A stretch of DNA of 6,108 bases from Pseudomonadota bacterium (GTDB taxonomy: Bacteria > Pseudomonadota > Gammaproteobacteria > Acidiferrobacterales > Acidiferrobacteraceae), in the NCBI GenBank assembly GCA_021795255.1, contig JAJYPQ010000262.1, forward strand, positions 1 to 6,108, in the 5' to 3' direction. Made by a program: the position numbers and the translations under genes. Below the pieces are notes generated by a model, which ran no database searches, was not told where the DNA came from, and saw only the letters and a program-made list of their open reading frames with translations. The stretch's first letter is position 1, and each line of letters starts with the position of its first letter. Of this stretch, positions 349-6,108 are shown one piece after another.

Positions 349-715
349 ATGGGGCGAATCCCAACAATTGACAAGGTCGGTCGCGCTTGTAACGGTGTTA
401 TGGTTTCCTATCCAAAACGCAAATCCGGCCACATGGCCAAGGAATCTATCCCAGTGACCGAGGATGCCATCCGTAGCTACTGGGGCGGCGGGGTAACGAC
501 ATCGTCGTGTCCTCGTTCGTTGCACATGTCCAGCCGTCGGTGTATGACCGCGCCGCTTCCACCGCAACATGGCTTGCGAACGAGGTCGCGAAGGTTTCAG
601 CGCTGTCATGTCAGATACCGGCGTGAAATCCCTGCTGACGGCGTCGTCCGGCACCCTCAAGGCAGTTTGGCCAAGCGACAAGGCGGGGGCACCCCAGTTA
701 GCCCGCCCCCAGTGA
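349..715 (+). pseudogene. Possible decayed gene with two frameshifts, unknown function
   Basis: No single frame here gives a convincing protein, but three consecutive plus-strand segments in different frames do read like one. Frame one, from the ATG at 349, gives MGRIPTIDKVGRACNG and runs to the G-rich run near 481-493 (ends SYWGGG). The next frame continues as NDIVVSSFVAHVQPSV to about 605. A third frame from about 608 gives MSDTGVKSLLTASSG and ends at the TGA at 713-715. Each segment has balanced amino-acid content and mostly G/C at third codon positions, unlike the Arg/His/Pro-rich single-frame ORFs of the same interval. The tail converges on, and slightly overlaps, the end of the reverse transcriptase gene. 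I do not recognise the protein. It may be a remnant of an earlier neighbour or a chance reading. Confidence 0.25.
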
Positions 716-1786
716 CGAGGCGGACTTTGGCGGCCATCTGATGGGGTTATGGCCGACTCCCGGGTAGTAAGGTCTCGGCCGCCGAGCGCGCGCGTTGGTG
801 TTCACTAAAGACAACAAGCGGCCCCGGGTTCCCACCGCGCGCAGCCGGAAACGGTCATCAACGTGGGCGATGTGATCGAGAACACCAAGGAGGCGTCGGG
901 CAGCATGGGGCTTTTCCGCGTCCGGAGACGCCCGCAGCGCGCGGTCCAGCGCTTTTGCTTTCCGGTGTTGCGGGCCTGTGGCAACCATCTTGCCATTACG
1001 AATACCAACGCCCGTAACACGCTTGTATGCCCGTTTCGGGTAAATCCAGGACTTACCGGAATGGAGTTCTAATCCTGCCTTGGCGAGGAGGCGGCGCGTC
1101 CATTCGAGGTCCGTTAGCGAGGCGCACGGCATGCTCAGTGTGATGTCATCGACATAGACCGACATGTTGCCCCCGCGGGCCTTTGCGCGGCGATGCAGTT
1201 TCTCGAAAAGTCTCCGATGACAATAGAAAGCGAGAACTTCACTGTGGACGCCCCCTGTGGGGAGATGGCCTGTATGGGGGTCCCCCAGGTTCTTCCGATA
1301 ACAGCAGAGCTTGGCCAAGATAATGGCCACATCATCGGCGCACAGCATCTCGTCGCGAAAGAACTTTCGGACCATCCGAAACACCGTCGACGGGTAGAAT
1401 TGACGGATGTCGGCTTTTAGGATGGGGGTGTGGCCGATGTGCTGCTGGGCGTTGGTCAGGAAAGATCGCTTGCGCACGCCGGAGTGACGGAAGTCTGAAG
1501 GTCGCACGCGCCTCAAAAGGGTGGCTATTCTGGCGTGGATGGCGCGTAACTCTTTGGCGGCCTGTTGAATTTCGCGGCCTTTACGGTCCCAAACGTGATA
1601 GTTGCCGGGTCGATCCGCCAACCGTTCGAGATTGGCGGCGCCTCCGCGCCACCCTAGTACTGCGCATAGGGTGCCTAATCCGCGAATCTTATAAAGGGCG
1701 CACTGATCAAGAGTGTACTGCTTTTTGGGGCGCTCCAATCTCTTCTTTGTCGGCCTCTTTTTCCGAGCTTTCGTCTCTGTTTTCAT
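698..1786 (-). CDS. Retron-type reverse transcriptase
   Basis: RNA-directed DNA polymerase of 362 residues, expected to copy part of a partner structured RNA into multicopy single-stranded DNA. A Lys/Arg-rich N-terminus (1-23) precedes the RT fold. The motif-A segment is LKADIRQFYPST with catalytic D126, motif B-like LPTGGVHSEVLAF lies at 175-187, and the YVDD box is at 211-214 (D213, D214), so all three catalytic aspartates are present. Two retron hallmarks are visible: NAQQH (112-116), matching NAxxH in region X, and VTG (257-259) in region Y. Length is normal for a retron RT and there is no maturase or endonuclease domain, which argues against a group II intron or diversity-generating element. 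The gene follows the XRE gene and overlaps its 3' end by 80 bases. The ATG at 1786 has only a weak GGGT upstream; a TTG at codon 17 is an alternative start. One oddity is the Glu in HSE where many RTs have Pro or Gln. Retron assignment is firm for the RT; any defence role is inferred. Confidence 0.9.
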   Translation of the reverse strand: MKTETKARKKRPTKKRLERPKKQYTLDQCALYKIRGLGTLCAVLGWRGGAANLERLADRPGNYHVWDRKGREIQQAAKELRAIHARIATLLRRVRPSDFRHSGVRKRSFLTNAQQHIGHTPILKADIRQFYPSTVFRMVRKFFRDEMLCADDVAIILAKLCCYRKNLGDPHTGHLPTGGVHSEVLAFYCHRRLFEKLHRRAKARGGNMSVYVDDITLSMPCASLTDLEWTRRLLAKAGLELHSGKSWIYPKRAYKRVTGVGIRNGKMVATGPQHRKAKALDRALRASPDAEKPHAARRLLGVLDHIAHVDDRFRLRAVGTRGRLLSLVNTNARARRPRPYYPGVGHNPIRWPPKSASSLGAG

Positions 1787-2057
1787 GCGTGACCCATTGA
1801 AAGAACTTCAGCAAACGCTTTGCTCGAGCCGCCCGGCCCTTGTCTGCGGGATCCACGACTGTGTCCTTGAACAAAAGGAACGTGGATGGCGGTACATCGA
1901 ACACTTTCGCGTATCGGTCGAGCAGGGCGATCGAAACTGTTTTACGACCCGATTCGACCTCGGACAAATATGAGCGCGATATACCCAGCTCGGCGGCGAG
2001 ATCCGCTTGTCTCATTCGGTGAAACTCTCGCGTAAGTCGCAAGGCGGTATGAAGCAT
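1707..2057 (-). CDS. XRE-family helix-turn-helix protein, retron partner
   Basis: A 116-residue protein whose residues about 6-62 form a classical Cro/C1-type five-helix DNA-binding domain. The turn and recognition helix are clear (RQADLAAELGISRSYLSEVE, residues 16-35, followed by SGRKTV). The rest is basic around 73-84, then a very acidic/charged tail (91-107) with no recognisable second domain. I chose the ATG at 2057 because a strong GGAGGT lies five bases upstream; a longer frame reaching 2153 adds 32 residues unrelated to the family. It is the first gene of the retron operon and its end overlaps the reverse transcriptase start. From memory, some retrons carry a small HTH protein next to the RT as their accessory component, so this may be the effector, or a repressor of its own operon; the sequence does not decide which. 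Confidence 0.88.
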   Translation of the reverse strand: MLHTALRLTREFHRMRQADLAAELGISRSYLSEVESGRKTVSIALLDRYAKVFDVPPSTFLLFKDTVVDPADKGRAARAKRLLKFFQWVTHENRDESSEKEADKEEIGAPQKAVHS

Positions 2058-2062
2058 ATGGC

Positions 2063-2068
2063 ACCTCC
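2063..2068 (-). promoter_or_regulatory. Shine-Dalgarno of the XRE gene
   Basis: On the minus strand this reads GGAGGT, five bases before the ATG at 2057. It is the strongest ribosome binding site in the window and fixes the start of the XRE gene, excluding the longer upstream frame. Confidence 0.8.
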
Positions 2069-2083
2069 AATAAGGATAAGGGG

Positions 2084-2105
2084 GTGATGCGAGTCCTGGT
2101 ATCAC
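2084..2105. promoter_or_regulatory. Possible operator, interrupted palindrome upstream of XRE gene
   Basis: GTGAT at 2084-2088 and ATCAC at 2101-2105 form a 5-base interrupted palindrome with a 12-base spacer, 27-48 bases upstream of the XRE start. XRE-type proteins often bind such dyads as dimers to regulate their own gene. A 5-base half-site is short and may be chance. Confidence 0.2.
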
Positions 2106-2238
2106 AACAACTTCCTGAGCACTTCTATCAGGCGCAGGATGAAAAATCCCCACTTCAAAGTCGCCGGATTCAGAAGCACTTCCTTGTACCAGGGTCGCTT
2201 AGACCGTCGTCGGGTATTGCTCTTGGACATAACATGCC

Positions 2239-2287
2239 CTCCGTGTTCGACACCGCATCATTGCGGTGCCCCCTCGCGAACACGGAG
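2239..2287. repeat. Nested perfect inverted repeat (putative msd hairpin)
   Basis: CTCCGTGTTCG (2239-2249) and CGAACACGGAG (2277-2287) are exact reverse complements, 11 bp. Inside them CACCGCA (2251-2257) and TGCGGTG (2262-2268) form a second perfect 7-bp stem with loop TCAT. One base separates the two stems on one side and eight bases on the other, giving a long hairpin with one asymmetric internal bulge. No gene occupies it. It is too elaborate for a simple terminator and lacks a T-tract. Confidence 0.85.
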
Positions 2288-2324
2288 TGCGGATCAGACG
2301 ACGGCCCTCACCCCACTTCCCAAG

Positions 2325-2350
2325 CACGACGAGCACCCTCGCTCGTCGTG
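2325..2350. repeat. Perfect 10-bp hairpin (putative msr stem-loop)
   Basis: CACGACGAGC (2325-2334) and GCTCGTCGTG (2341-2350) are exact reverse complements around the 6-base loop ACCCTC. The stem and loop lengths match the short stem-loops of retron msr RNA. On the minus strand it precedes the larger hairpin at 2239-2287. No T-run follows on either strand, so it is not a typical intrinsic terminator. Confidence 0.8.
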
Positions 2351-2369
2351 TAACCCCCCGGCCCGGTAC

Positions 2370-3706: not shown

Positions 3707-4558
3707 GTGACCTCAGCTATGTACATCCTTGACACTTGCGCAATCATCGGTATCTCATGGACGAAACTGGAACGGGCGGTGCAGAAGGGTGTCGATTTCG
3801 CCGTCTGTCCAACAACGTGCTTCGAGTTGGCGAGTCACCTTATAAGGTCGGAGGAGAAAGACTATGCCCGTGCGCGCACCAATTTCCTGAAATGTCGTAT
3901 GCCTCACCTTCTTGAGGACAGTGCTGTGCGGTGGGCGGACCGCGCCAGCGCAACGCAAGGTATTAACCCTGGACGTCGAGATGAGCGCGATTTGCTTCTG
4001 CAAATGCTCGACATAGTGTCAGAAGCGCAATCACTTGATGACCTGCATGCAAGGTGTCTACGTTACCCGGATGGATTTATGCTTCCCCTCGCGAACCACG
4101 GGGAAAGGATTGATGAGATCCTGCGAGGAGAGGAGCAATGGTATAAAGATCGCATGAAACAATTACTCAGAGAGAGCGAGTTTTTTCGACTGCCCAATGG
4201 GTCGTACGGCATCACCAGAAAGATCCTAATGGGAAATCTCGAACGGGCTGGAGGCAGTGAGTCGCCGGACTCTGGGATAGGGCGCCGTAGAGCCGTAAAC
4301 AATGCAATGGCGCAGGCTCCGTATATCGGGTACATGCTGCATCGATTATACGATGCGAGGAATCATGGTCGGAATGATATCGACCGTAATGACTACGAAG
4401 ACGCCCTCATTTGCCTTGCAATCGATCTGGACCGCAACGATGTATTGGTGACGGAAGAAGATGGGACGATAAAGGCATTAACGCATACGGCCGCCCTTCT
4501 GGAACGCGAAGCCTGTGTAATGTCAAAAGATGAGTTCGTACAGCGTGAGTGCCAATGA
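3707..4558 (+). CDS. Long PIN-domain protein, putative ribonuclease
   Basis: A 283-residue protein (279 if the ATG at 3719 is used; neither start has a clear Shine-Dalgarno). The N-terminus MYILDTCAIIG is the PIN opening strand with the first metal-binding Asp (D9). E40 in CFELASHL fits the second acidic site. Near the C-terminus NDYEDALICLAIDLDRNDVL followed by VTEEDGT supplies the later acidic residues (E231/D232 and D252) and the final strand. PIN proteins are Mg-dependent RNA nucleases, best known as VapC toxins of about 130 residues. Here roughly 190 extra, mainly helical residues separate the two halves, so this is not an ordinary VapC, and no small antitoxin gene precedes it; the upstream partner is a membrane protein. 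A stand-alone RNase or an abortive-infection-type effector are both possible. Confidence 0.75.
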   Translation: MTSAMYILDTCAIIGISWTKLERAVQKGVDFAVCPTTCFELASHLIRSEEKDYARARTNFLKCRMPHLLEDSAVRWADRASATQGINPGRRDERDLLLQMLDIVSEAQSLDDLHARCLRYPDGFMLPLANHGERIDEILRGEEQWYKDRMKQLLRESEFFRLPNGSYGITRKILMGNLERAGGSESPDSGIGRRRAVNNAMAQAPYIGYMLHRLYDARNHGRNDIDRNDYEDALICLAIDLDRNDVLVTEEDGTIKALTHTAALLEREACVMSKDEFVQRECQ

Positions 4559-4641: not shown

Positions 4642-5835
4642 CTAATCGTCCGCTAATACCACCAGCTGCGCTCTTTCGGGATCATACACGACCTCTGTAA
4701 TCGAACCATCCCGGATGCGCTGAACCGCTTCGTCGATGACGGGGAGCGGGACCAGGAACCACTCCCGCGGCCGCACGGGATTCCCGAATCGATCTTCAAT
4801 GGTGAGGTCCAGTTGGGCGGTGGCGAAGACACGGTGGAAGAGGTGTTCGAGCTTGGTGCGGTTGATGCTCGAGAGCTTGTAGCTTGCCACTACCTCCACG
4901 TCGGCCAGCAGATAGGTGGCCTCATGGGCGGCATGGGCAATCCGGGTCTCGACCTTGCCGCCTGTGACGCCGATCTTATGAATGAGTTCGCGATGGGCGG
5001 CGATAAAGGGATGAGCGGAGAGGCTGCGCAAGACATAAATAGTGCCGCTTTCGATATCGTCGTCTTCCCAGGTCTGGCTGAACAGGGGCCCGGCGTCGGG
5101 TTCCGGCGTGACGCGCCGTCCACCTTCATCCTTATAAAGGGCGCGCTGGAGCGAGCGGCGCAAGAGATTACTTTCGGTGCCGTTGGCATAGACGACCCGC
5201 AAGCGGGCGTCGTTCTTACCGGTGGACGTTTTGATGGTCTCGCCCACCTCGGCGACATAGACGAGTTGACCCCCGAGAATAAAGAAATCGCCCTCCAGGA
5301 TAGCAGCGCCCTCTTTGCCAAAGGGCAGGGTCTGGCGCAGGCCGGCCTTGAGCTCACTCTCAACCCCGGCAAAGAGCGGCTTGAAGCGCGCAAAGTCCGG
5401 GCAAGGCGTACGGTCGGCGATTTCTTCCGCGATCCGTCGGTCTTCTTGCGAGCGGACATGCTTCAGGACCGTGATGTCGTTCTCAGTGGGCGCAGCAACA
5501 CCGAGTTCCGCCAGGAGCGCCTCGTCATCGAGTACCGCTACCGGCGGTTCTGAGCCTTCGTCCGCCGCGAGTAGACCGTGGACATCGCGTGCCGCCAGCA
5601 GCGCTTGAGCCTCTGGCAGGGCCCGCAGGCACTGGAGACGCACGGCGTACAGACGCTCGAAGATGTCGCGCCCCTCTCCGTGCTGCGGCACGCGCCCATG
5701 CGTCTCGACGAAGCGCAAGATATCCTCGAATCCAGCCATAATGCGCTCTTCACGCGGGGTATGGCGTCCATTGGCTACGGGTGGAGCCTCAACTCCTAGG
5801 GCGTCCAGGAGTTCATCATCGGAGAGATCAGACAT
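4642..5835 (-). CDS. GIY-YIG nuclease family protein
   Basis: A 397-residue protein ending in a GIY-YIG-type domain. GTIYVL (264-269) and HKIGVT (286-291) are the two signature strands (TIY and KIG variants), R298 is the likely catalytic Arg and E330 in TKLEHLFH the likely metal-binding Glu; FGNPVRPREWF (350-360) closes the domain as in T5orf172/Mug113-like members. The upstream region carries the conserved block FFILGGQLVYVAEVGE (184-199) and NGTESNLLRRSLQRALYKDE (218-237). The N-terminus contains two related acidic segments, DDELLDALGV (6-15) and DDEALLAELGV (103-113), with a helical stretch between them, suggesting an internal duplication of a docking element. The ATG at 5835 has AAGGAG six bases upstream. 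It overlaps the preceding helicase gene by 8 bases, so the two are translationally coupled and probably act together on DNA. Function in restriction-like defence is inferred from context. Confidence 0.88.
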   Translation of the reverse strand: MSDLSDDELLDALGVEAPPVANGRHTPREERIMAGFEDILRFVETHGRVPQHGEGRDIFERLYAVRLQCLRALPEAQALLAARDVHGLLAADEGSEPPVAVLDDEALLAELGVAAPTENDITVLKHVRSQEDRRIAEEIADRTPCPDFARFKPLFAGVESELKAGLRQTLPFGKEGAAILEGDFFILGGQLVYVAEVGETIKTSTGKNDARLRVVYANGTESNLLRRSLQRALYKDEGGRRVTPEPDAGPLFSQTWEDDDIESGTIYVLRSLSAHPFIAAHRELIHKIGVTGGKVETRIAHAAHEATYLLADVEVVASYKLSSINRTKLEHLFHRVFATAQLDLTIEDRFGNPVRPREWFLVPLPVIDEAVQRIRDGSITEVVYDPERAQLVVLADD

Positions 5836-6108
5836 CGTCGACTCCTTTGCGCTCAACCGCGGCCTTCTCTTGGGCGCGGTAACGGGCCAAAGCCGCCACC
5901 CCTTCGGCCATGCGCCGTTCCCAGGCATCGAGGGCGTTAATGTCGGGGAGCCGCCCGCGCTCCTGCTTAAATTGCAGGGCCCGCTGCGCCAGTTCCCGCG
6001 CCTCCTCAACCGGAATGGCGAGACGCTTGGCGGCGATCGTCGTCTGCACTTGGCGCAGGGTCTTCTCGTCCAGTGCTTTAGCCAAAACGGCGTAGGCCGC
6101 CTCAAAGG
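5828..6108 (-). CDS. Probable DEAD/DEAH-box helicase, C-terminal end only
   Basis: An open frame enters from the right edge and ends at the TGA at 5830-5828; 92 codons are visible and the N-terminus lies outside the window. The end matches, from memory, the C-terminus of large DEAD/DEAH helicases found beside GIY-YIG nuclease genes: a helical stretch (LRQVQTTIAAKRLAIPVEEA), then FKQERGRLPDINALDAWERR and MAEGVAALARYRAQEK, a version of the usual RGRLPxxxxxDAWERRMAEGVA signature. No catalytic motif can be seen because those lie upstream. It overlaps the GIY-YIG gene by 8 bases in the same orientation, a clear operon. The family call depends on the tail signature and neighbour. Confidence 0.62.
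   Translation of the reverse strand, partial: FEAAYAVLAKALDEKTLRQVQTTIAAKRLAIPVEEARELAQRALQFKQERGRLPDINALDAWERRMAEGVAALARYRAQEKAAVERKGVDDV

Follow-up and report, generated by a model that had tools for sequence, protein, structure and literature searches.

A type VI retron cassette whose structured RNA overlaps a conserved small open reading frame, a candidate toxin that reverse transcription may silence

In canonical retrons the template RNA follows the order a1, msr, msd, a2, and copying by the reverse transcriptase (RT) begins next to a2 and proceeds into the msd. Retron-Eco1 (Ec86) has this same order, and in it, as in other tripartite retrons, the msd is noncoding and the effector has a separate gene, unlike in the cassette described here. 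The scheme that sorts retrons into types is that of Mestre et al. 2020, as cited in PMC8541194 (2021). Passages of that article report short hypothetical proteins upstream of a helix-turn-helix (HTH) gene in two phages, assign a similar element to type VI, and include small auxiliary proteins in that type; as far as these passages go, the small open reading frames (ORFs) are known without RNA overlap, covariation or mechanism. Here, we describe a cassette on the minus strand of a 6,108-nucleotide (nt) stretch of contig JAJYPQ010000262.1 from a Pseudomonadota bacterium (the whole stretch is called the window below). It shares its RT family, HTH family and gene order with the type VI retrons (PADLOC RT_VI/HTH_VI), and adds a third gene whose start lies inside the predicted msd and a2. 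A literature search found no report of an ORF overlapping a type VI retron msd, and, with subscription papers mostly outside its coverage, a prior description is possible. Our leading proposal, to which we give an even chance, is that this retron may act as a toxin-antitoxin element in which the RT would silence the small ORF by copying its start.

On sequence evidence, the cassette is a type VI retron. Its RT (698-1786, minus strand, as are all cassette features below) scores 216 bits (1.3e-64) against the PADLOC model RT_VI, versus 92 bits (7.5e-27) for the second-best family; Pfam identifies it as RVT_1. It carries the motifs NAQQH, YVDD and VTG, and NAxxH, YxDD and VTG are marks of retron RTs. 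All nine solved sequences that match it are retron RTs or an unnamed RNA-directed DNA polymerase, with Ec86 RT the best at 2e-14. The gene directly upstream encodes a Cro/C1-type HTH protein of 116 amino acids (aa) (1707-2057; PADLOC HTH_VI 1.1e-25, Pfam HTH_3 3.8e-12), and its 3' end overlaps the start of the RT gene. The likely HTH start is the ATG at 2057, which has GGAGG ahead of it; the start at 2153 is that of the longest frame only.

In an unrooted RT tree, 30 loci with the small ORF, the window among them, share one side of a branch (100/100) as against 21 other retron-like RTs, and seven loci with a longer ORF form a separate group (97/96). The tree was built without L050, L034, L042, L054 and L031 and with a different frame rule for L060, and its group A comprises 28 of the 31 ORF-bearing loci together with L088 and L090. 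An earlier note on this DNA had proposed a retron with an RT bearing NAxxH, YVDD and VTG and an XRE-family HTH gene directly upstream, and both genes are present where it placed them. Its retron reading is supported because PADLOC types the RT and HTH protein as VI, the solved relatives are retron RTs with Ec86 first, the RT does not fall outside the retrons and its branch stands apart from the 21 other retron-like RTs, and the RNA has a covarying a1/msr/msd/a2-like layout.

A protein search returned 83 relatives of the RT, mostly at about 46-68% identity; those named by the source are Xanthomonadales (for example Luteibacter, Rhodanobacter, Metallibacterium, Pseudoxanthomonas and Xanthomonas). 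The window's RT has a C-terminal tail of about 30 aa (698-790) that extends beyond 30 of 31 aligned relatives and is common only to P0001, which is 99% identical. At L019, L021, L022 and L080 the RT shows no canonical NAxxH and its TG motifs are altered; RT, HTH gene and small ORF are all present at those loci.

The third gene is a 42-aa ORF (MSKSNTRRRSKRPWYKEVLLNPATLKWGFFILRLIEVLRKLL; 2102-2230). It has a net charge of +9, a basic N-terminus and an amphipathic C-terminus, and it overlaps the structured RNA, lying downstream of the hairpins and upstream of the HTH gene. A comparable ORF was found in 31 loci: the window, 19 genome loci, six phages and five plasmids, after removal of L068 (its ORF list is the same as that of L066) and of IMG/VR copies. 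These ORFs are 42-67 aa long with net charges of +2 to +12, and their stop codons lie 30-100 nt before the HTH start in the 30 of 31 loci where an HTH start was found. Please note that ORF starts were picked by the analyst as an ATG with a Shine-Dalgarno-like stretch, so that ATG in every locus reflects this choice, and that the L060 record has a longer start. An RT match was seen in 17 phage and 91 plasmid records; six of each were examined, and all 12 of these annotated loci have a comparable ORF. At this place half of the 12 records (6/12) annotate a small coding sequence. The seven Escherichia coli chromosome loci fetched all have it undisrupted, and there it is annotated as a 51-aa hypothetical protein. 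A profile built from eight such ORFs found 37 relatives in protein databases, one of them 98% identical to the window's ORF.

The small ORF looks coding. Twenty codon pairs were chosen by hand and aligned as protein; they are not independent of one another. The ratio of nonsynonymous to synonymous substitution rates (dN/dS) was 0.00-0.54, all below 1, in the 16 computable pairs, and four pairs were saturated. Over the C-terminal two thirds, the best helical moment has z above 0 relative to shuffles in 31/31 loci, with a mean of 1.7 and values of at least 2 in nine (window z 1.0). The product is a candidate toxin.

Alongside these ORFs there is a second kind. Among 24 distinct RT_VI loci (E 1e-60 or better), 15 carry the small basic ORF, eight carry a longer one, and one (L059) has neither ORF nor HTH gene in its listing. 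The longer ORF (L017, L018, L047-L052) is 68-83 aa long and hydrophobic in its C-terminal part, lies at a similar position, and has an HTH gene downstream except in L051, as far as listed. Seven of these eight loci have RTs on the separate branch, L050 having been left out. This group may carry another effector in the same design.

In the window, the 371-nt segment at 2060-2430 folds 5.2 standard deviations better than dinucleotide shuffles, none of 100 shuffles equalling it. It contains two inverted repeats, one fully complementary (2325-2334/2341-2350) and one 93% complementary (2236-2249/2277-2290). The first forms P1 (2325-2350), a hairpin of 10 base pairs; the second belongs to P3 (2236-2290), an msd-like two-part hairpin just before the ORF start codon, whose 3' arm holds the Shine-Dalgarno sequence of the ORF, GGAGGG (2237-2242). 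The mean pairing probability of this hexamer is 0.83. P4 joins a leader strand (GGGCCGTCGTC, 2297-2307) to ORF codons 7-10 (GACGACGGTCT, 2201-2211), with p 0.08 in the window alone (100 shuffles). P2, tentative in the window, joins GGGAAGTGGGGTGA (2308-2321) to TCACCCCCTTATCC (2074-2087), between the ORF stop and the HTH gene, and would enclose the ORF; in the window alone its p is 0.52 and the z of the window's own pair 0.02, and its single-locus significance is poor in most loci.

Further upstream lie an msr-like hairpin (GGGGGCGCAAGCTCC, 2428-2442), often of the form GTGGAGG-loop-CCTCT in the family, and the putative a1 (TCGCTGTCGGGTGTTGC, 2504-2520), which adjoins a -10-like TACACT (by eye) and is the probable 5' end of the transcript. 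Its putative partner a2 (GCAATACCCGACGACGG, 2204-2220) is codons 4-9 of the ORF. The a1 strand forms a 12-nt inverted repeat with the ORF (92%; 0/100 shuffles as good). Both strands come from a wider scan, and they lie largely outside the narrow a1:a2 zone of the fixed-zone test described below. GGGGGT/ACCCCC had first been taken as the window's a1/a2; on family comparison P2 and the present a1:a2 pair took its place. An Rfam search with E up to 10 returned three matches, each of them far below its family's gathering score. The earlier note had called this upstream segment gene-free and had set its structured RNA at 2180-2410: the hairpins and the structure are there, but the segment holds the 42-aa ORF and, by comparison with relatives, the RNA extends to about 2520.

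The pairing test took, for each locus, a 5' and a 3' stretch defined by their distance from the ORF start, and compared their best complementarity with that of stretches swapped between loci. It covered 27 or 28 of the 31 loci, the near-copies L024, L075 and L064 having been dropped and L072 being missing from the earlier tests; the eight longer-ORF loci (L017, L018, L047-L052) and L059, nine RT_VI loci in all, were left out. In fixed zones (28 loci, 20,000 permutations), cognate stretches exceeded swapped ones with z of 9.8 for P1, 9.75 for P4, 9.0 for P3, 7.1 for a1:a2 and 5.15 for P2, each at p 5e-5, the floor of the test. When the ORF was redrawn with synonymous codons (28 loci), the observed pairing stayed higher at z 6.6 for P4 and 4.3 for a1:a2, versus 0.6 in a sham zone. 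Unbroken Watson-Crick runs of at least 8 occur for P4 in 16/31 loci versus 35/930 swapped pairs, for a1:a2 in 7/31 versus 31/930, and for P2 in 10/31 versus 104/930, the swapped pairs including relatives.

Scans across the leader and ORF point to the same elements. The strongest of 253 zone pairs were two hairpins and a helix running from about -105 to just past the ORF stop. On a finer grid, -80..-65 pairs with ORF +18..+40 (z up to 9.9), and the stretch 35-65 nt upstream of the msr-like hairpin pairs with ORF +8..+33 (z 7.4 at its peak). Family-wide, P4 joins the leader to codons of about 7-13, and a1 pairs with codons of about 4-9. Two Escherichia loci show changes on both sides of a1/a2, TTGGTT/AACCAA in L060 and TTAGTT/AACTAA in L090. 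For P2, the main zone, set after the single-locus P2 results, gave z 5.2 versus -1.6 to 1.3 in five control zones. Around the msr-like hairpin, with anchors typed by hand in all 31 loci, RNAalifold on a 23-sequence MAFFT alignment predicted five pairs, the sole pairing found there, and three of the five change on both sides. In L060, L064 and L085-L091, conservation (judged by eye from the alignment) is higher in the leader and the first 13 ORF codons than over the remainder of the ORF, as would be expected if this stretch served both as RNA and as coding sequence.

Across the family, the anatomy of genes, helices and helix overlap with the ORF is well supported, P2 in the window less so. The RNA appears to have a covarying a1:a2, an msr-like hairpin, an msd-like P3 and predicted boundaries; the earlier note had made its case depend on covariation in the hairpins, and such covariation is seen family-wide in the cognate pairing.

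The promoter region offers a likely role for the HTH protein. Upstream of the predicted promoter lies an operator-like imperfect repeat, TTCGC-TACTG-GCGAC (2542-2556), which emerged from family comparison. TTCGC or GCGAA occurs in 27 of 31 promoter zones versus 13.5% of shuffled zones and 4/30 control zones taken from the HTH gene. The full TTCGC-N5-GCGAA occurs in 16/31 promoter zones versus 0/6200 shuffled and 0/30 control; in the window the repeat is imperfect. The HTH protein looks like a likely autorepressor of this promoter and likely also binds the toxin as an antitoxin; now that the RNA is seen to hold a third coding gene, either role would be more probable for it than that of effector.

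The mechanism that we regard as the best fit runs as follows. A single transcript from about 2520 would carry a1, msr, msd and a2 and then the HTH and RT genes. The msd and a2 would double as the start of a 42-aa amphipathic toxin gene, with the Shine-Dalgarno sequence and AUG in the msd (the former in P3, the latter between P3 and a2) and codons 4-9 serving as a2. The RT would prime beside a1 and copy from about codon 3 through the AUG, the Shine-Dalgarno sequence and P3, which predicts multicopy single-stranded DNA (msDNA) of about 75 nt, plus sense, at about 2221-2295 of the window. In other retrons host RNase H removes the template. Copying with such removal would leave the toxin message without its translation start, which the folded RNA (P3, P4, a1:a2) would block meanwhile, and the HTH protein would repress the promoter and probably neutralise leaked toxin. 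A phage that blocked the RT, unfolded the RNA, or removed the HTH protein or msDNA would release the toxin, which would then damage the membrane and halt the infection. We are somewhat less sure of a more general claim, which we put a little short of an even chance: that the effector is encoded in the template RNA and that reverse transcription of the ribosome-binding site and start codon is itself the antitoxin activity, so that RT failure or spoiled copying would activate the toxin, and no separate effector complex would be needed.

Two known kinds of system help to place this proposal. Type I toxin-antitoxin pairs such as TisB/IstR share a small amphipathic toxin-like peptide whose translation start is hidden in mRNA structure; there an antisense RNA silences, whereas here RT copying of the toxin's own leader, together with the HTH protein, is proposed to do so. 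DRT2, as described in part of PMC12039810, shares the joining of an RT and a toxic coding sequence via one RNA template. Reverse transcription assembles the toxic gene in DRT2, according to the same part, whereas the copy made by the present cassette would remove the toxin's translation start.

It is important to weigh what counts against the proposal. Counter to the dN/dS trend, the ORFs of L087 and L060 differ by seven nonsynonymous and no synonymous changes, and 8/24 RT_VI loci bear the different, longer ORF. The 253 zone pairs have a median z of 0.46 with a standard deviation of 1.6, and ten exceed 3, some of them unexplained. The fixed zones were chosen after the grids, and their p values do not come from untouched data. 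The a1:a2 signal is uneven, a locus's own partner in the wide zone ranking in the best 3 of 28 for 11 loci only, and P2 gives p 0.19 in the nine loci nearest the window versus 1.5e-4 in the other 18. No pair emerged when RNAalifold was run on the P3/P4 stretch of 31 sequences aligned with MAFFT, and support for P3 and P4 therefore rests on the zone test. The Shine-Dalgarno sequence is predicted to be paired (at least 0.5) in 24/31 loci; when the upstream sequence is shuffled the figure is 57%, so the excess is modest. P4 and a1:a2 cross, a2 lying 5' of the P4 3' strand, and would form a pseudoknot if simultaneous or else alternate. Finally, a G-rich stretch often follows a1 (by eye), and the position of the branching guanosine is not fixed by it.

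Three other explanations deserve consideration. The one that survives best, possible in our view if doubtful, is that the small protein is a toxin held in a complex by RT-msDNA and the HTH protein, with msDNA acting as a sensor instead of arising as a by-product of silencing, and the overlap of ORF and RNA serving only to couple expression. In its favour, models of antitoxins (HipB-like, HigA, PezA) match the HTH protein weakly, every one under the curated cut-off, and part of PMC12548924 describes retrons as complexes of RT, RNA and DNA by which an effector is sequestered. It leaves unexplained why a2 and P4 lie in coding sequence, with pairing above that of synonymous codons. Rather improbable, we think, is that the small basic protein is a helper, such as an RNA-binding chaperone of the retron complex, with the HTH protein or the RT as effector. 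Its charge across the 31 loci and its basic N-terminus would suit such a role; the lean of its C-terminal part towards an amphipathic helix, of the kind found in TisB and other small membrane toxins, its translation start in a folded leader, which is common for toxins, and the autorepressor-like HTH protein with its promoter repeats speak against it. The mutually crossing, switch-like P4 and a1:a2 would fit a structured leader whose only role is attenuation or riboregulation of the operon and which yields no msDNA. We consider this very improbable, since both its family and the solved sequences closest to it mark the RT as a retron RT, and since a1, msr-like hairpin, msd-like hairpin and a2 follow one another in retron order.

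Related cassettes occur in 99/5426 complete E. coli genomes, 98 of the 99 over at least 80% of the query. The relatives lie in P2-like prophages next to a replication gene, which is upstream of the cassette in P2_2H1 and in 6/7 E. coli loci fetched. As to phage defence, this prophage setting is only suggestive.

Elsewhere in the window, a protein with T5orf172 and MUG113 domains, which we take to be GIY-YIG-like, is encoded at 4642-5835 (minus strand), with a small ORF (5828-6106) upstream. A 283-aa ORF at 3707-4558 (plus strand) has a start that is PIN-domain-like by eye (MYILDTCAIIGIS), and it has no match in Pfam, PADLOC or NCBIfam.

Type VI retrons have been without an obvious effector, and an HTH protein alone leaves the killing unexplained. 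A conserved toxin-like ORF fused into the predicted msd and a2 would provide both a candidate effector and a directly testable mechanism, and, because E. coli genomes carry related elements (99 of 5426 complete ones), it is open to experiment. We recommend that type VI annotation and noncoding RNA prediction look inside the leader, and those engineering type VI msd regions should bear in mind that they would alter coding sequence. If the proposal is true, it would represent a new mode of gene control by an RT, one that consumes the start of a gene's message.

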